Shown here in pieces: positions 1 to 61,501 of a stretch of 64,000 nt of DNA; position 1 is the stretch's first letter, and the number at the start of each line of letters is the position of its first letter. The stretch spans positions 1 to 64,000 of IMG/VR virus record IMGVR_UViG_3300037193_002967; one strand, written 5' to 3'. The DNA is from a virus. The notes under the pieces were generated by a model. It did no database searches and had not been told where the DNA came from. It was given only the letters and a program-made list of their open reading frames with translations. A program made the translations under genes and the position numbers.

Positions 1-672
1 CGAGCCGCTAAATTGGCACTTAAGCTAAAGGAATTGGAAGCTAAAAAATCCGCTTCTAATAGCAAGGGCGACACCCAGAAATTGAACGAACAAATAGTTG
101 AGTTAAATAATCAGCTACGTGCAGAAAAAGATGCAAAAGCAGCATTAGAGACTCAGCACAAAACCAATCTTAAAAATTTTAAGATAGATGTGGCTTTGAG
201 GCAGTTGCTTGGTACTTATAAAACCACCCAAGATAATCTTAGCCCAGAAACCAAGTCTTTAATATTGTCGAGCATCATTTCTAACCATTTGAAGACTAAA
301 AATGCAGCTTGGGAAATGGATGACAATGACAATTTGATCCTGGCGGGTGCGAATGGTACCAATTTATTTACTGATGATAACCGTCCACTCACTCCTAAAA
401 CTTTTATAGATAAAGTTTTAACCGATGAAAAGCTGTTAGTGGTTACCGATAACAGTAATAATAATAACGGTAACAATAATAACAATTCCTACCGGCCAAC
501 CAATAACAATGGTGGGCAATACAATTCCAATAGGGCCAACGGCCAATACAATGACAATGGCAACCATAATAATGGTGGTCAACGTCGAGCAAATCCCGTA
601 CTTCAGGAACTTATTCAAAAATCCCAAAAGGATATTGAAAAGTCCGAGAATGGCGGTATTAAGGTGATGTAA
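1..672 (+). CDS. Scaffold-like protein upstream of the capsid gene (5' partial)
   Basis: The frame is open from base 1, so the true start lies upstream and the N-terminus is missing. The visible part has a charged, Lys/Glu-rich coiled-coil region (first 60 residues), a mixed central domain, and an Asn/Gly-rich low-complexity stretch from about residue 145 to 195 with runs of Asn. It ends 39 bp before the major capsid gene. A coiled-coil protein at this position is usually a scaffold or a GP20-like minor capsid component (family and position knowledge). The role is inferred from position and composition; no catalytic motif for a protease is visible in this part. Confidence 0.6.
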   Translation, partial: RAAKLALKLKELEAKKSASNSKGDTQKLNEQIVELNNQLRAEKDAKAALETQHKTNLKNFKIDVALRQLLGTYKTTQDNLSPETKSLILSSIISNHLKTKNAAWEMDDNDNLILAGANGTNLFTDDNRPLTPKTFIDKVLTDEKLLVVTDNSNNNNGNNNNNSYRPTNNNGGQYNSNRANGQYNDNGNHNNGGQRRANPVLQELIQKSQKDIEKSENGGIKVM

Positions 673-711
673 GATCGAATTCTTTTACTTTTTACTTAAA
701 AAATATTTTTT

Positions 712-1842
712 ATGGCGAATGGCTTTTGCCCTAGCCTGCTATATCACATCAATGAAATAGCAGGTGAAAACGCACCCGGCCGTAAAATGCATGTAGCTGG
801 TTTTTTGGCTATGCTTTTATGTTGCCAAAACAGTAGTGTATCTCCTATTAATGACGCTTTTCAAAATGGCCATCAACGTGGTTTGAATATTAAATACCGC
901 CGCCGTCCTGTACTTACGGATGTGCAGACAGAGGACAATTGCGATATTAATACCCAACCTGGCTACTTAGAGTGGTCTATCCCGCAGCTTTTACATCGAC
1001 AAGTAAGTTTTCATATTGCGGATGATCTTATCCGTCAATATTGTGAAGATGCCAGCCGTATGCGTACTACTGGGCAACCTCCTACACCAGTTATGAATGA
1101 AGTGTTTGATCTCATTGTAGAACATGCAAATATTCTTATGAGATCAATTAATGTAGCCTTGGTTACTGCTCAGGCTACTGAATTTGGTGCCAATACTACC
1201 ACTGGAAGCAGTACCGGCAAGTTCATTAATATCAACCGAAATGGGGATCAATTCATTTTGGATGATGGCATTGTTGAAATGATGCAGGATATTTCCGAGA
1301 ATGAAATTTGTGGTGATCCTTGTTTGGTTGGTGGTGGCTTATTCGCAGCTTATGATAAGGCACGTGCATTGGCTTGCTGTAATGCTGCAGGTATGAATTT
1401 GGGTGCGGCAGGTATCCCATCTTTCTTTTTTGATAAAGACACGCAGACAATTTGGGGGCAAGATAGTGTTGGTCTTTTTGCTCCTGGCAGCGTGAAATTT
1501 ATTAGCCGTAATAAATTTGTTGGTTCATTTGCTGGTCAACGTGGTCAAAGCTTCTTTACCACACTTCCTCTGCCGGTCAGTGAATTTGGTTGCGCAGATG
1601 ATTGTTTGCGTGATCTAGTACTAGATATGCAGATCAAATATTTCGATTGTCCTACAGAAATTGAAGGAGGCGAAACAATAGATCGTGGATTCCAAGTTAT
1701 CCTCGGTAAGGATTTCCATTTGTGGACTCAACCAGATAATGCATTCCAAGCAACCGATCCCTTAGCAAATACTAATGGTACATTAAAGTACTTCATTAGT
1801 AATAATACTTATGGTGGAGGCTCCTACGCTTATCCTGGTTAA
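712..1842 (+). CDS. Major capsid protein
   Basis: A 376-residue protein directly after the scaffold-like gene. The length, the alternation of helical and beta-rich stretches and the Gly/Phe-rich segments fit an HK97-fold capsid subunit, and it is followed by a chain of small overlapping head-tail genes, as is usual for this position. The start is ATG after a very AT-rich leader. A hairpin after the stop may set a high transcript ratio for this gene. I assign the role from position and general character; I do not recognise a specific subfamily. It is unusually rich in Cys for a capsid protein, including a Cys pair near residue 220. Confidence 0.75.
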   Translation: MANGFCPSLLYHINEIAGENAPGRKMHVAGFLAMLLCCQNSSVSPINDAFQNGHQRGLNIKYRRRPVLTDVQTEDNCDINTQPGYLEWSIPQLLHRQVSFHIADDLIRQYCEDASRMRTTGQPPTPVMNEVFDLIVEHANILMRSINVALVTAQATEFGANTTTGSSTGKFININRNGDQFILDDGIVEMMQDISENEICGDPCLVGGGLFAAYDKARALACCNAAGMNLGAAGIPSFFFDKDTQTIWGQDSVGLFAPGSVKFISRNKFVGSFAGQRGQSFFTTLPLPVSEFGCADDCLRDLVLDMQIKYFDCPTEIEGGETIDRGFQVILGKDFHLWTQPDNAFQATDPLANTNGTLKYFISNNTYGGGSYAYPG

Positions 1843-2849: not shown

Positions 2850-3411
2850 GATTTTAGATATAATCAATGAGGGCATTGCGGGTATTCATGTTGATGAAAG
2901 GATTTATGGTTTAGCTGAAAACGTAACCAGGGAAACGAGCAGTGGATATATTAGCATGCCTGGGGTGGTAGATATTAATAATGAAGTTAAATATCTCGGT
3001 GTAGATGATATTTATTCCTTTATTGTTTACCACAAAATAACCAATGCGACTATTGTTTATAACAGTACCGGGTATGGCGAAAATTATGGAGATGCTGTAA
3101 ATACTTATCTATCTAGTCTTTACGTGTATTGGGATCGAAAAAAAATAATGCTTTACCCGCCAGATATGCTTTTATTATTGCAGGCCAGAATGCCGGTAGC
3201 TATAAAAGGGCTAAAGGATATAAAGCAAGCGGTGGTCTTAATTGGGAATGCTAATACTAATACTCAACAGATATATCAACAGGAATACAGTTCCAATGAG
3301 CCCTTAACACGTTTACCAGAAGGCAAATATATTATGCAGATCAACTATAACATTCGAATAACTTTTAACCCATCATGCTTTACTAATTGTGTAGAGTGTG
3401 ATGCAAAATAA
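2839..3411 (+). CDS. Tail terminator / tail completion candidate
   Basis: A 190-residue alpha/beta protein between the neck candidate and the tail tube candidate, the usual place of the tail terminator. The C-terminus ends in a short Cys cluster (CFTNCVECD). It overlaps the gene before it by 11 bp and the next gene starts 8 bp after its stop. No family signature is visible; the role is inferred from order. Confidence 0.45.
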   Translation: MVYKILDIINEGIAGIHVDERIYGLAENVTRETSSGYISMPGVVDINNEVKYLGVDDIYSFIVYHKITNATIVYNSTGYGENYGDAVNTYLSSLYVYWDRKKIMLYPPDMLLLLQARMPVAIKGLKDIKQAVVLIGNANTNTQQIYQQEYSSNEPLTRLPEGKYIMQINYNIRITFNPSCFTNCVECDAK

Positions 3412-56413: not shown

Positions 56414-56719
56414 TCAATATTTTTTTAGTTCAATATTCAGGCTGTCTATTTTATATTGATAGCCCCAAATTTTGCTTTTGATCCGCATTCTTTCATTAAC
56501 ATTAATAGCCTGGGGGCTCATGATCTCACCAGTTTTGGCATAAGCGAATGTAGGAGCATGTTCCACCAATACCAGTGCGGCCTTTTGACGGCCAATGCTG
56601 TCTTTATAATTTTCAATCAATTGTGTGATTCTGGATTTTTTATTACCCCTATTTATATTAATAATAAAATACGTCAAAAGCAAACCAAGGAAAATAAAAA
56701 TAATTACAAAATATTTCAT
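56414..56719 (-). CDS. Small protein with N-terminal membrane helix
   Basis: A 101-residue protein. The start MKYFVIIF at 56719 is preferred; residues 2-22 are a membrane segment, then a helical periplasmic-type domain. Role unknown. Confidence 0.5.
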   Translation of the reverse strand: MKYFVIIFIFLGLLLTYFIININRGNKKSRITQLIENYKDSIGRQKAALVLVEHAPTFAYAKTGEIMSPQAINVNERMRIKSKIWGYQYKIDSLNIELKKY

Positions 56720-56917: not shown

Positions 56918-57280
56918 TTATAAAGAGCTTTGTTTTGATTCTTTTAGAAATTTAGTATAAAGTCTTCCCTTCTGCGTTAAATTGAATCTACAGGAAAATG
57001 GATCAGTTAAGATCATTCTTCCGTCTATTTCAATCCTGCCTAACATGAGACTTTCGTAAAGCTGCGTAAATACCAGAAATGTCTCAGCAATATCTGCTGC
57101 TTCGTCATCATTTTCTATATTCCAAAATGACTCACCAGTTTCCATTTGGTAGACAGTATCTACATAATTTATAATCAAATCCTCACTTATTGGGTTCCAG
57201 TTCTTTTTCCTAGAAATATTTACCAATCTACCAAATTCCTTGGTAGTCATATTTTCAAAGAAGTTTTGTAAATCTCCCAT
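56918..57280 (-). CDS. Hypothetical protein
   Basis: A 120-residue acidic helical protein starting MGDLQNFFEN at 57280 (the longer start would run into the hairpin at 57297-57323). Unknown. Confidence 0.55.
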   Translation of the reverse strand: MGDLQNFFENMTTKEFGRLVNISRKKNWNPISEDLIINYVDTVYQMETGESFWNIENDDEAADIAETFLVFTQLYESLMLGRIEIDGRMILTDPFSCRFNLTQKGRLYTKFLKESKQSSL

Positions 57281-57296
57281 ACCGTGAGCTTTTAAA

Positions 57297-57323
57297 GAAA
57301 GGCCCACCAACTAAGGGCCTTTC
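57297..57323 (-). terminator. Terminator after tRNA-Glu
   Basis: A perfect 9-bp stem GAAAGGCCC/GGGCCTTTC with a 9-base loop, followed on the minus strand by TTTAAAA. Confidence 0.8.
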
Positions 57324-57351
57324 TGATGAATAAAACCACTATATGAAACAG

Positions 57352-57422
57352 TACACAGTATGGGAATCGAACCCATTACATTGACGTGAAAGGCCAACCG
57401 CTCACCAATTGCGTTACTGTGC
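57352..57422 (-). tRNA. tRNA-Glu (TTC)
   Basis: A normal cloverleaf: acceptor GCACAGT/ACTGTGT, D-arm CGC...GCG with GG in the loop, anticodon loop CTTTCAC (TTC), T-arm ATGGG-TTCGATT-CCCAT. No CCA is encoded. Confidence 0.85.
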
Positions 57423-57479
57423 TTGTACCAGCATAGAAATGCCGGGTACGTTAAATTCCAAAATCCTATGAAAAACCAG

Positions 57480-57583
57480 TGACCGGCAGCGGATTCGAAC
57501 CACATAACTAACGCAGAAGCTGCGCTTTACCTGATACTGATATTGTAAATATACCGCTAAGTATATTACTCACAGCGCCGGTC
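57480..57583 (-). ncRNA. tRNA-like RNA with unusual arms (104 nt)
   Basis: Acceptor GACCGGC/GCCGGTC and a T-arm around GTGG-TTCGAAT-CCGC are clear. The 60-70 bases between do not form a normal D-arm and anticodon arm: there is no GG in a D-loop, one possible 5-bp stem has loop ATTTACA, and a second hairpin GCGCAG-CTT-CTGCGT lies before the T-arm. Isotype not assignable. A degenerate or expanded tRNA, or a tRNA with a very long variable arm. Confidence 0.55.
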
Positions 57584-57663
57584 ATTTGCCCGCCGTATCG
57601 TGCGGGCGCGTAACGCGATTATGAGATTTTACACTGTATAGATGGTCGGTAAAATTAATTTAC

Positions 57664-59088
57664 TTAAGCATGCACATTCTTGCCTTCTTCGGTTTCCCAT
57701 ACACCTTGCGCAATCCTTTGTCCGAGCAATTCGCCAAATAATTTCACAAATTGTTCAGCCTTATTGGGCTTATCAACCTGATCATTCATCAAAGCAATCT
57801 GGTAAGACATGCTGTGAATGCATGATTCAACGATATCATCTGTAATAGTGCCTTGTTTCTTTGCCAATTTAACAGCGCGCTGTGCAATTTCAGCTACTAC
57901 GGCACCCTGTACATCGGGTGTCTTTTTAGCAAGCGTGGCATAATCAAGCATCGCTTCGCCCTTCAGGCCCTTGAAATATACCTGGTAGATTTGTGAACGC
58001 ACTTCTTCGTCAGGGTTCTCAAATTTGATCATTACATCAATCCTTCCAGGGCGGCGCAAAGCAGTATTGATCTTTTCGGGGTGGTTTGTGGTGAAGATGA
58101 CAGTCAGGTCATTTCCTTTAGTTTGAACACCATCCAAGGTATTCAAAATTTTATTCATGCTGCTATCCCGCTGTTCACCAGAAGCAATTTCGTCCACATC
58201 TTCCAAGAAAATGATGCATGGCTGGTATTTTTTACACTGGTTCAACAGAATATCAAAAGCTTTTGCATCTTTCAGATAAAAGAATGACATGCCATGATTT
58301 TCAACAGCGGCGCGGCCAACGCGCATAGCGGTTTCGGTTTTACCAGTACCATAGCCACCTGCAAAGAGGTAGCAGCGTTTTCCAGATTCTCCCAGGCTGT
58401 CAATGATGAAAGTGTCAACCACCAATTGTTCCCGTTTGTTCAGAACAATTTTTTCGCTGCCTTTGTTTTCAATGATCTCAAAGGCAAGGTTATTACCATT
58501 TTTAGTAACAACAATACTTTTCCCCCGGTAAATACTGGCGGTTTCCAGTTGTTCGCGTATAAGGTTGAAATAGTTGGTAATGGGGTCGCTGAATTTCCGC
58601 TTTGCTTGGATTGAAATATGCACGGTACCATCATCTGCAATTCCAATTCTCGCTACGGCCTTTTCCCAACAGGTAATTTGGAAGTCACCATAAAAAGCAC
58701 GTTCGTTTACCTTCTTGCCTTTTTTGATATCTACCACGATATCAATTTCTCTCGGACTGCCAGTAAACCAGTTTTCTTTTCCATTCATCCATCCAAATTC
58801 ACGTTCTGTAACACGGCGAACGGCTACCAAAACATCCTGCCAGTTCCAGCCTTCAAAGGCGCTGGAAAAATTGTTTTCGGACTCTTCATTTTTCCACTGT
58901 GCCTCTAATTCCTTAGCAGCTACACGCTTGTCCATGCCTTTAGGGAGCAGGATTTTTTTCACCTCATCCGAATATTCGGTAGGTGTTGCGATTTCTTTTA
59001 CGTTATCCGGAAGGTCTACGCCCATGGCTTTTAAGAGAGCGGCTACAGGTCCTTCAATTTGTACTTCGCGTTGAAGCAATTTAGACAT
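57664..59088 (-). CDS. AAA+ ATPase
   Basis: A 474-residue protein. AAA+ core at about 235-370: Walker A GGYGTGKT (244-251), Walker B CIIFLEDVDE (291-300), sensor TTN (333-335) and arginine finger RRPGR (345-349), as in FtsH/Cdc48-type ATPases. The N-terminal half is a substrate domain of unknown type. It could remodel host or phage proteins. It lies between tRNA genes and is transcribed with them on the minus strand. Confidence 0.8.
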   Translation of the reverse strand: MSKLLQREVQIEGPVAALLKAMGVDLPDNVKEIATPTEYSDEVKKILLPKGMDKRVAAKELEAQWKNEESENNFSSAFEGWNWQDVLVAVRRVTEREFGWMNGKENWFTGSPREIDIVVDIKKGKKVNERAFYGDFQITCWEKAVARIGIADDGTVHISIQAKRKFSDPITNYFNLIREQLETASIYRGKSIVVTKNGNNLAFEIIENKGSEKIVLNKREQLVVDTFIIDSLGESGKRCYLFAGGYGTGKTETAMRVGRAAVENHGMSFFYLKDAKAFDILLNQCKKYQPCIIFLEDVDEIASGEQRDSSMNKILNTLDGVQTKGNDLTVIFTTNHPEKINTALRRPGRIDVMIKFENPDEEVRSQIYQVYFKGLKGEAMLDYATLAKKTPDVQGAVVAEIAQRAVKLAKKQGTITDDIVESCIHSMSYQIALMNDQVDKPNKAEQFVKLFGELLGQRIAQGVWETEEGKNVHA

Positions 59089-59125
59089 GCTTTTTTGTTT
59101 TTGAGTTATAAAATCCCTTAGTTAG

Positions 59126-59195
59126 TTGCGTGGGTTGGAGTCGAACCAAACTTCAGGGTTATGAGCCCCGTGTGCTACCGTTACACCACCCCGCC
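59126..59195 (-). tRNA. tRNA-Met (CAT), initiator-like
   Basis: Anticodon loop CTCATAA gives CAT. Acceptor GGCGGGG pairs with CCACGCA with mismatches at 1:72 (G-A) and 5:68. The anticodon stem has three G-C pairs (GGG/CCC) at 29-31/39-41, a hallmark of initiator tRNA. An elongator Met or a tRNA-Ile2 is not excluded. No CCA is encoded. Confidence 0.8.
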
Positions 59196-59308
59196 ATGAG
59201 CAACTTTTGAATAGAGTTGCCAACTATTAGCGTTGCATTTGTTTTGTTCGCTGCGACTTTTAGACCCCAGCAAACTGGTTGAACCACACAATCTACCCAA
59301 CCTCTTTA

Positions 59309-59509
59309 TTACCAAAAAGGATCACCCGGTACGTATGGAAAATCAACTCCCAAATTCCTGCCCGTGCGGTAAGCCTCTTCAGAATGGCCAGGATGCCTTT
59401 TTTTCATATCTTCTATTTCTTCATCATTATAGTAGCCGCCATCTCTAAGATCGTCACAATTACATTTATCGAGTGGCTGACCGCAGGAAGAGCAATAAGA
59501 TGGGGTCAT
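59309..59509 (-). CDS. Small protein with Cys pairs
   Basis: A 66-residue protein starting MTPSYCSSCGQPLDKCNCDD, a zinc-binding CxxC...CxC start, then an acidic stretch. Position between two RNA genes. Unknown. Confidence 0.55.
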   Translation of the reverse strand: MTPSYCSSCGQPLDKCNCDDLRDGGYYNDEEIEDMKKRHPGHSEEAYRTGRNLGVDFPYVPGDPFW

Positions 59510-59532
59510 AAAACGTAATTTAAAAAGTTTTT

Positions 59533-59562
59533 AAAAATGGGCCCAGCGTAAAAACGCCGGGC
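59533..59562 (-). terminator. Terminator between RNA genes
   Basis: Stem GCCCGGCG/CGCTGGGC on the minus strand with T5 following. One of three similar hairpins in the tRNA region. Confidence 0.7.
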
Positions 59563-59637
59563 GCGTTAAATGACTGATTGGCGTTTGTCAACGATTGAAC
59601 ACTAATCAATGTTAATTAACCATTAAACCTTATCCTG

Positions 59638-59788
59638 TGAAAGCGAATGGATTCGAACCATCAATACAAATGCGTGGAAGCCGCACTCATATTTTTAGGG
59701 AACTATCGTTGGGATTCCACCCCCTATTTTCGCTCCTTTTTTAGCCGACCCTAACGGTCGCTGCGTTTACCAATTCTGCTACACTTTC
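59638..59788 (-). ncRNA. tRNA-like RNA with expanded middle (151 nt)
   Basis: Acceptor GAAAGTG/CGCTTTC, a D-arm GCAG-AATTGGTAAA-CGC with GG, and a normal T-arm GATGG-TTCGAAT-CCATT are clear. In place of the anticodon arm and variable loop there are about 100 bases with several hairpins (GCGACC...GGTC; AGGGG...; GTGCGG...). No convincing anticodon is visible. An intron, a tmRNA-like or decoy RNA, or a degenerate gene. Confidence 0.55.
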
Positions 59789-59795
59789 GTTAAAC

Positions 59796-59890
59796 TTTAT
59801 TTAAGTTGCAGTTTCACAAGATTAGTGGGATTCTCGCCCGTTCCTGAATTTAATCATACCGATCTTGGCTTAAACGCAACTTAAATAAAT
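59796..59890. ncRNA. Long hairpin element
   Basis: TTTATTTAAGTTGC (59796-59809) pairs with GCAACTTAAATAAA (59877-59890) over 14 bp, followed by a bulge and GTTT/AAAC. An inner helix CAAGAT/ATCTTG and a D-loop-like GGTA are present. The loop holds no ORF. Confidence 0.55.
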
Positions 59891-59904
59891 TAAGTTATTT
59901 TAAA

Positions 59905-60027
59905 TTGACGGATGGCAGGATTGGTTAAAACACCGTTTACCTGCACGTGCTACAGTTACGACTTTCTGCTTGCACACCACCAAAAGTCGATAGTGCGTGG
60001 AGCGTCTAATTCCGCCACATCCGTCAA
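59905..60027. ncRNA. Cloverleaf-shaped RNA element (123 nt)
   Basis: Outer helix TTGACGGATG/CATCCGTCAA (10 bp). Inside lie three hairpins: GCAGG/CCTGC, CGACTTT/AAAGTCG with a GCAC/GTGC base, and GTGG/CCAC. This is a four-helix shape like a tRNA, but the loops lack the T-loop TTCGAAT on either strand. Either strand could be the transcript. Confidence 0.5.
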
Positions 60028-60497
60028 AGAGTTTATTGGCTGTCCATGTATCCAGCATGGAATGACTATCGAACACGTTAATTCGCTCTTAAATGCGCAC
60101 CCATAGTACTATGATATAATACCTGTCATGCACACATTCCTTTCACCCCTCCATCAAACAAACGCTACTGGTATAGCTGTAGTAATCGCCTTCCTTTCAC
60201 CTTGCGGGTTCACTCATAAGGCAGTGCGTTGTTGCATCTCGCAGGAATACTACTGTTTGACTTCAAGCAGCCAATAAGAAGTTATTGGCGTTAAGCAGGC
60301 CGTCAACGACGCGGCACTTTCATGCTATAAACTTGACCATACACAATGTGTTAAGCGGTCGGGCATCTATTGCCTGCTATTAGCCAATAATATCTTCAAT
60401 TACTTTTCAAAGAACTTTAAAAATGGGCACTGAGTAGAAACAAAGTGCCGGGCTAACGATTGCATGCCCGATGAAGGGCCCATATGAAAAAAATTCG
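60028..60497. other. Non-coding region with hairpins
   Basis: No convincing gene. Hairpins seen: TCCATG/CATGGA (60041-60062), GCCAATAA-GAAG-TTATTGGC (60269-60288), GACC...GGTC with ACACA/TGTGT (60337-60362), and on the minus strand a terminator GGCACT/AGTGCC followed by T5 (60419-60449). A direct repeat CCTTTCACC occurs twice. Confidence 0.4.
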
Positions 60498-60556
60498 AGG
60501 CGGGAACAGGATTCGAACCTGTGAAATTACGCGTTAAGCCACTCCGCAACCCCGCC
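60498..60556 (-). ncRNA. tRNA-like RNA without anticodon arm (59 nt)
   Basis: Acceptor GGCGGGG/TCCCGCC, D-arm GCGG-AGTGGCTTAA-CGC and T-arm ACAGG-TTCGAAT-CCTGT are well formed. Only 8 bases (GTAATTTC) join the D-arm and T-arm where the anticodon arm should be. It is too short for a tRNA and keeps the elements seen by processing enzymes and EF-Tu. It may be a decoy, a tRNA fragment or a deletion product. Confidence 0.65.
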
Positions 60557-60628
60557 ATATAAGGGCCCAGCTGGATAACCAGGCCCGTTTATTAAGAAAA
60601 AACCTTAATAATGGAAAAAAATATGAGT

Positions 60629-61501
60629 TTAATTAACCATTTCTAAAATGGTATTGAATATTTTTTTGTCGGCCCTCTCTTTTTCAAAGAATGGCTTGCT
60701 TTCAACACCGTGAATATACTCATTGAAAGCATTATAACCAAGCCATAAATTGGGGGTTGCGCCCAATTGGCCAGCTTCTTTTTGGATGGTATCAATGATC
60801 TGTTGGGCGATTTTAGAAGGCTCATCCGGGTTCTTTTCGCTTTTTTCGTACTTCGCCAGACCGGTCTTGCCTAGAACATATTTCACGAATTCATTGATAT
60901 CTGGTACTACGCCTTCTGCCAGCACATTGAACTTTTTTTGAATGGTGTAATACTCGTTATCCATGAATTGCGCAATAAGCTCTTCGATCTTCGGCATAAT
61001 GATTTCCATGGTGTTAGCGCCGCGTTTACGAAGGCTAAATCCAATTTTCATATGAGCCACATGTAGACCGTTCTCGCATATTTTGCGAAAGCCCGAGAAG
61101 CCGCCCACAGTACGAACGCTACCGTCATATGAATTAATAGCGGTTAGCATGGGTTTGATAGTATCAACACCCTTGGCGTTTTTGAACTTATCGCCAATGT
61201 TTACATGGTAGGCATCGTCTTCCAGGATGTAGTCTACCTTGAAGTTTTGATTGCGGTAGTTGCTGGCGCGCTTGCTGTATTGAATACCAGCATTATCCAG
61301 TAACGTCTCAAACTGACCGAAGAATTGCTCATTCGGAATGAGATTATAGCCATTGCTTACCAGGTTGACAATCTCGCCATCAGCAATAATAAATTTATCA
61401 AAACCGGGGCGCATTTTAAATCCGGTGATCATTGAAGCGTCCGCTTCTGTAACGGGGATGTAGATGTTGTCGTTTCTTTTGTAGGATTGTTGTGTGTTCA
61501 T
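60629..61501 (-). CDS. DUF932 family protein
   Basis: A 290-residue protein. VGGFSGFRKICENGLHVAH with the ICENG core and NLWLGYNAFNEYIHGV fit the DUF932 phage/plasmid-like family (function unknown). It lies under an operator of the TGACAAA-N4-TTTGTCA type. Confidence 0.75.
   Translation of the reverse strand: MNTQQSYKRNDNIYIPVTEADASMITGFKMRPGFDKFIIADGEIVNLVSNGYNLIPNEQFFGQFETLLDNAGIQYSKRASNYRNQNFKVDYILEDDAYHVNIGDKFKNAKGVDTIKPMLTAINSYDGSVRTVGGFSGFRKICENGLHVAHMKIGFSLRKRGANTMEIIMPKIEELIAQFMDNEYYTIQKKFNVLAEGVVPDINEFVKYVLGKTGLAKYEKSEKNPDEPSKIAQQIIDTIQKEAGQLGATPNLWLGYNAFNEYIHGVESKPFFEKERADKKIFNTILEMVN

Follow-up and report, generated by a model that had tools for sequence, protein, structure and literature searches.

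An anticodon-armless tRNA-like RNA in a phage genome and the recurrence of similar RNAs among viruses

The window studied here, meaning the whole 64,000-nucleotide stretch of viral DNA that was analyzed (part of a virus record of 72,173 bases), encodes a 59-nt tRNA-like RNA on its minus strand, read from position 60556 to 60498. Upstream on the same strand lies a gene for a DUF932 protein, and downstream lie a Leu-like tRNA, tRNA-Met, an AAA ATPase gene, and tRNA-Glu (Table 1). The 45-nt stretch upstream of the RNA folds at -16.4 kcal/mol (z -3.41). By eye, a second Leu-like tRNA is recognizable at 59898-60026 (minus strand); its acceptor (GACGGAT/ATCCGTC) is perfectly paired, its lower half is long, and its T loop carries an insert. 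A highly structured noncoding stretch at 60032-60380 (minus strand), closed by TTATTGGCTG/CAGCCAATAA and adjoined by a second stem-closed unit, had no Rfam match. A hairpin motif, GTTGGCAACTC...AAAAGTTGC, at 59200-59224 (minus strand) precedes tRNA-Met and was also seen upstream of the armless RNA in four phages of the TCTCAAG family described below (L156, L158, L160, and L167). Beyond the window, the same record encodes an RNA ligase (L003 10335-11075, minus strand; PF09414, E 1.9e-16), which may function in tRNA repair.

Table 1. Parts of the tRNA-like RNA and features around it, in window coordinates.
Feature	Position	Strand	Basis
Anticodon-armless tRNA-like RNA	60498..60556	-	RF00005 38.0 bits; armless model R1 39.0 bits
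Acceptor 5' strand GGCGGGG	60556-60550	-	sequence
TT after acceptor 5' strand	60549-60548	-	sequence
D stem GCG / CGC, 3 bp	60547-60545 / 60533-60531	-	sequence
D loop GAGTGGCTTAA, contains GG	60544-60534	-	sequence
Linker GTAATTTC, 8 nt, replaces positions 26-48	60530-60523	-	sequence
T stem ACAGG / CCTGT and loop TTCGAAT	60522-60506	-	sequence
Acceptor 3' strand TCCCGCC	60505-60499	-	sequence
Discriminator T (T73), CCA not encoded	60498	-	sequence
Strong hairpin, ends 6 nt before RNA 5' end	60563..60587	-	fold of 45-nt upstream stretch
Seven-T run just past RNA 3' end, possible terminator	60487..60493	-	sequence
DUF932 protein, upstream gene, same strand as RNA	60629..61501	-	Pfam PF06067, E 7.5e-13
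Leu-like tRNA, ~91 nt with further hairpins replacing anticodon arm, downstream	59638..59788	-	cmscan RF00005 30.6 bits
tRNA-Met(cat), ordinary length, downstream	59125..59195	-	ARAGORN; cmscan 44.8 bits
AAA ATPase, downstream	57664..59088	-	Pfam PF00004; 75% identity to G001 homologue
tRNA-Glu(ttc), downstream	57351..57422	-	ARAGORN; cmscan 50.5 bits

Examination of the element confirmed the first-pass annotation's description of well-formed acceptor, D, and T arms joined by 8 bases: the RNA is the upper half of a tRNA in which an 8-nt linker replaces the anticodon arm. The acceptor stem comprises 7 bp (six Watson-Crick and one GU), the T stem is fully paired (5/5), and the elbow residues T8-A14 and G15-C48 are present, the D stem being only 3 bp; the terminal base of the linker GTAATTTC is C48, able to form the Levitt pair with G15. 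Compared directly with the tRNA model RF00005 by cmscan, the element scored 38.0 bits (cut-off 29; E 1.2e-5), with 15 anticodon-arm model positions skipped. A structural scan found exactly one such architecture in the window, and 150 mononucleotide shuffles yielded no instance of it. The whole-window gathering run of cmscan missed the element, and ARAGORN made no call at 60498-60556, from which it follows that standard tRNA callers can miss RNAs of this class. In the isolated minimum-energy fold, T8-T9 and linker bases are pulled into a longer D helix. Having no anticodon arm, the element cannot decode.

With canonical tRNA (RF00005), the element shares the 7-bp acceptor, T8, A14, G18-G19, R15-Y48, and a T arm with a TTCGAAT loop, but it differs in lacking the anticodon arm. 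The tRNA-like domain of tmRNA is likewise a tRNA upper half with the anticodon arm absent; the window RNA, however, has a D stem, is 59 nt long with no tag reading frame or pseudoknots, and carries neither G3-U70 nor A73. Identity with tmRNA was rejected, as an ARAGORN tmRNA search of the window found nothing and C3-G70 and T73 occupy the relevant positions. The Y RNA-like YrlA is reminiscent of the window RNA in being a nondecoding tRNA-like module, yet it has a separate Ro-binding stem, of which none was seen here; this identity was also rejected, with no RF02553 match at E <= 1 in 57000-61000. The armless mitochondrial tRNAs of nematodes, mites, and spiders are also miniaturized, but there the anticodon is retained and the D and/or T arm is lost, the reverse of the window RNA; their CCA-adding enzyme and EF-Tu are adapted to them (PMC7730189, PMC12221289). 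For minimal RNase P substrates (acceptor/T-stem models), the upper half suffices (PMC4975455), although these are laboratory constructs rather than genes.

Searching with the ATPase led to one IMG/VR relative of the window phage (G001), the ATPase being the only neighbor found common to both, and searching with the major capsid protein led to three relatives (G002-G004); no relative was found in IMG/VR through the DUF932 protein. G001 has an armless element of its own at 56639-56699 (7/7 acceptor pairs, encoded ACCA, 27.2 bits with the armless model R1 described below), at a position not syntenic with that of the window element. A tRNA search of G002-G004 gave a single match, a full-length tRNA in G003. 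The first-pass annotation had held that a normal tRNA at this place in related phages would mark the element as a simple deletion; none was found at this place in these relatives. No ortholog of the window element was found in IMG/VR by the DUF932 route, by an exact 36-nt search (0 matches), or by a pattern fitting its D and T arms (pattern A), which returned other families only and may have left out the window's own record. Two further tRNA-likes of G001 have perfect acceptors: L002 (L137) 629-740 (plus strand), which encodes CCA, has a lower half of 64 nt, and immediately precedes the shared ATPase, and L012 1153-1273 (minus strand), whose lower half is 71 nt long.

Similar RNAs were sought in IMG/VR with three patterns in which the D and T arms are spaced too closely for an anticodon arm (linker of 1-13 nt in pattern A and about 2-12 nt in the others), all counts being lower bounds. 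At least 155 matches were obtained, of which at least 71 passed structural filters that required T8, giving at least 57 distinct viral armless tRNA-likes at 70 loci. To avoid circularity, frames for a test of acceptor pairing were defined from the D and T arms alone, with the acceptor unselected. Among the matches listed, the 82 distinct frames had 7/7 acceptor pairs in 48 cases, 6/7 in 8, and five or fewer in 26, as compared with 1.5% reaching 7/7 and 3.5% reaching 6/7 upon random re-pairing of the same acceptor strands; the 26 poorly paired frames imply that some class members are decayed or false. Among the 57 elements in the matches listed, the linker was 8-9 nt long in 39, A14 was present in all 57, and the Levitt pair 15-48 was Watson-Crick in 52 (36 G-C and 16 A-T; shuffle mean 28.8), a pair that these RNAs could simply have retained from the tRNA they descend from. 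In this same set of listed matches, the discriminator was A in 38/57, CCA was encoded in 5/57, and ARAGORN found no other tRNA in 36/57 loci; acceptor sequences of class members are freely variable. The window element, with its 8-nt linker and G15-C48, fits the class both in linker length (7-12 nt) and in having a Watson-Crick pair at 15-48. A covariance search for the same RNA in other phages, proposed in the first-pass annotation, was borne out in that a covariance model (R1) built from 43 members, with the window sequence left out, detected the window element over its full length (positions 1-60/60) at 39.0 bits and E 1.1e-9. The 98.8% of paired cells in alignment A1 is an inflated value because its rows were preselected for 7/7 acceptor and 5/5 T-stem pairing, and in three of these rows the D stem is out of register.

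The TCTCAAG family comprises five loci (L153, L156, L158, L160, and L167) that occupy the same place in phages sharing, over kilobases, mostly 77-90% identity. Although the immediate flanks in this family are hard to align, L153 and L158 agree at 59/59 positions of the RNA, as do L156 and L167; in L160, acceptor pairs 1-72 and 2-71 are changed on both sides, and 3-70 has passed from A-U to a G-U wobble. The L199 and L200 RNAs, both with encoded ACCA, match at 47/58 positions, their differences including two compensatory pairs, and lie between unalignable flanks. Judged from these sequences, conservation combined with compensatory changes in the TCTCAAG and L199/L200 RNAs is not what random decay would predict. 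In the CCTCTCG family, represented by nearly identical contigs, the RNA sits on the same strand as the two genes that flank it, one for a major head protein and the other for a tail protein, at distances of 46 and 25 nt. The annotated phage MW202828.1 carries an unannotated armless member (637-697), which scores 48.1 bits. When four members were compared with INPHARED by BLAST, no armless copy of those four was returned, the rows listed in one of the searches being annotated tRNA-Pro of Caulobacter phages.

Several loci contain further tRNA-like arrangements. In MW202828.1 (L428 522-697, plus strand), an unannotated tRNA whose anticodon stem is 7 bp long and whose loop is 30 nt is directly followed by the armless tRNA-like, and L153 has a second armless tRNA-like at 3026-3088 (plus strand; AGTCAAG/CTTGACT, 36.4 bits), ~110 nt downstream of the first. 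At L114 2166-2385 and 2928-3097 (plus strand), armless tRNA-likes lie within the anticodon loops of other tRNA genes, the outer acceptors being paired 7/7 and the nested pairs sharing the lead-in CAGAGTAAACTG. Nesting inside another tRNA was seen in 2/65 elements tested, both in L114, and was ruled out for the window element, which has no outer tRNA halves on both flanks.

The neighborhoods of 57 listed elements revealed no single functional neighborhood. Among the matches listed, both flanking ORFs were on the same strand in 24/57 and tight on both sides in 6/57. A strong upstream hairpin (z <= -2) was present for 11/30 armless versus 21/115 ordinary tRNAs (p 0.03). With pattern A, intact armless elements occurred in 5/22 viral stretches versus 4 flagged in at least 119 from cell genomes, a rough comparison in which one or two of the four flagged elements look real by eye. 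Two Bacteroidota loci with degenerate armless tRNA-likes (L424 and L425) both encode a Band_7/SPFH protein (in L425 by resemblance); L424 also has two tRNAs, and L425 also has RNaseH-like and AAA proteins.

Recurrence, acceptor pairing, linker clustering, the Levitt pair, orthologous conservation, and the independent model match together argue that anticodon-armless tRNAs are probably a real, recurrent class of phage RNA whose tRNA upper half is kept by selection while the lower half is dispensed with, a reading to which we assign a probability of about 0.6. Architecture, recurrence, covariation, and conservation within one family were observed at the level of the class; for the window's own copy, selection is something we infer. 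This copy may still be decaying, because its D stem is only 3 bp, its discriminator is T73, CCA is not encoded, and the tRNA-likes around it are aberrant.

An explanation to which we give a minority share of the probability is a simple deletion pseudogene: the anticodon and variable arms of a type-II-like phage tRNA would have been lost recently, leaving a gene that is now decaying. A product of deletion had been among the suggestions of the first-pass annotation; it is unlikely to account fully for the class, given that class orthologs are conserved above the genome average with compensatory changes, but for the window copy it is possible. Neighbors such as the tRNA-like at 59638-59788 are aberrant, the odd lower halves in the region fit a decaying cluster, and the D loop of the window element resembles that of tRNAs with long variable arms. 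Armless decay does occur, since the third pattern matched 3/394 Bacteroidota cell genomes and each match has <=5/7 acceptor pairs by eye. The acceptor and T stems of the window element, however, are intact, and an arm-loss control in 1.64 Mb of viral loci, of little power, turned up one unselected armless tRNA but none that lacked the D arm or genuinely lacked the T arm (five "T-less" matches still contain T-arm sequence). Far less probable is a recombination or integration scar, that is, an attP/attR-like tRNA fragment. Fragments at attR are one-sided, and such an origin is disfavored by the two acceptor strands of the window element, both present and paired; no integrase was noticed, short of a dedicated search, near 60.5 kb. 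What commends a scar is that integration commonly takes place at tRNA genes and that tRNA fragments are known to arise when phages integrate (PMC9897764).

The recurrence of similar, like-shaped RNAs in many other viruses points to a role other than decoding. RNase P, the CCA-adding enzyme, and EF-Tu recognize features of the upper half, and those features are preserved here. RNase P does not require the anticodon stem-loop (PMC4975455), and on these two grounds an RNA processing element dependent on tRNA maturation is ranked first, as a best guess held tentatively; the upstream hairpins and the strands of flanking ORFs described above favor it only weakly. RNase P, 3' trimming, and CCA addition would recognize the acceptor/T stack and elbow, and this recognition would lead to excision of the RNA from the phage transcript; the chief role of the RNA would be that of a compact signal for processing or punctuation, and a stable ~60-nt product would be left. 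Besides a primer, the first-pass annotation had offered a decoy for tRNA-cutting or tRNA-modifying enzymes. A decoy is weak for anticodon nucleases, because the anticodon arm is their cut site; a decoy or sponge that buffers host immunity by occupying acceptor-end or elbow enzymes (CCA-end pyrophosphorylating toxSAS, MenT transferases, Cas12a3, and similar enzymes) is the main competitor of the processing role but rather unlikely. All parts that such enzymes need are retained, and the frequent discriminator A among the matches listed is in keeping with a decoy, which owes its remaining plausibility to the existence of acceptor-end immunity: FaRel2 inspects the acceptor stem (PMC11559606) and Cas12a3 attests that such immunity is real (PMC12851939). 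Against a decoy, acceptor sequences vary freely, few of the listed matches encode CCA, and no association with a defense or counterdefense gene was noticed, short of a systematic check. tmRNA is alanylated by AlaRS, and members with G3-U70 and A73 might similarly be charged by AlaRS and act, without decoding, via EF-Tu or SmpB/ribosome rescue, which we consider improbable. Among the matches listed, G3-U70 occurs in 11/50 members whose acceptors pair 7/7, each of the 11 also having A73, compared with 38/816 full viral tRNAs and 11/98 with the same D arm (p 0.045 versus the latter); this enrichment is modest, however, and may reflect tRNA-Ala descent, and the window element, with C3-G70 and T73, lies outside the subset. 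A broader scheme, possible but doubtful, is that upper-half tRNAs are a widespread phage class that enter host maturation (RNase P and CCA addition, with the G3-U70 subset alanylated) without decoding and serve both as processing signals and as acceptor-end decoys that counter tRNA-directed immunity, the lower half being free to vanish or expand.

The usual explanations for phage tRNAs are decoding or escape from anticodon nucleases. In the open-access full-text literature, with subscription journals mostly outside the search, we found no report of anticodon-armless phage tRNAs. If these RNAs are conserved, a tRNA gene unable to decode would separate maturation from decoding in nature, and other phage uses of tRNAs would become directly testable with small, defined RNAs.
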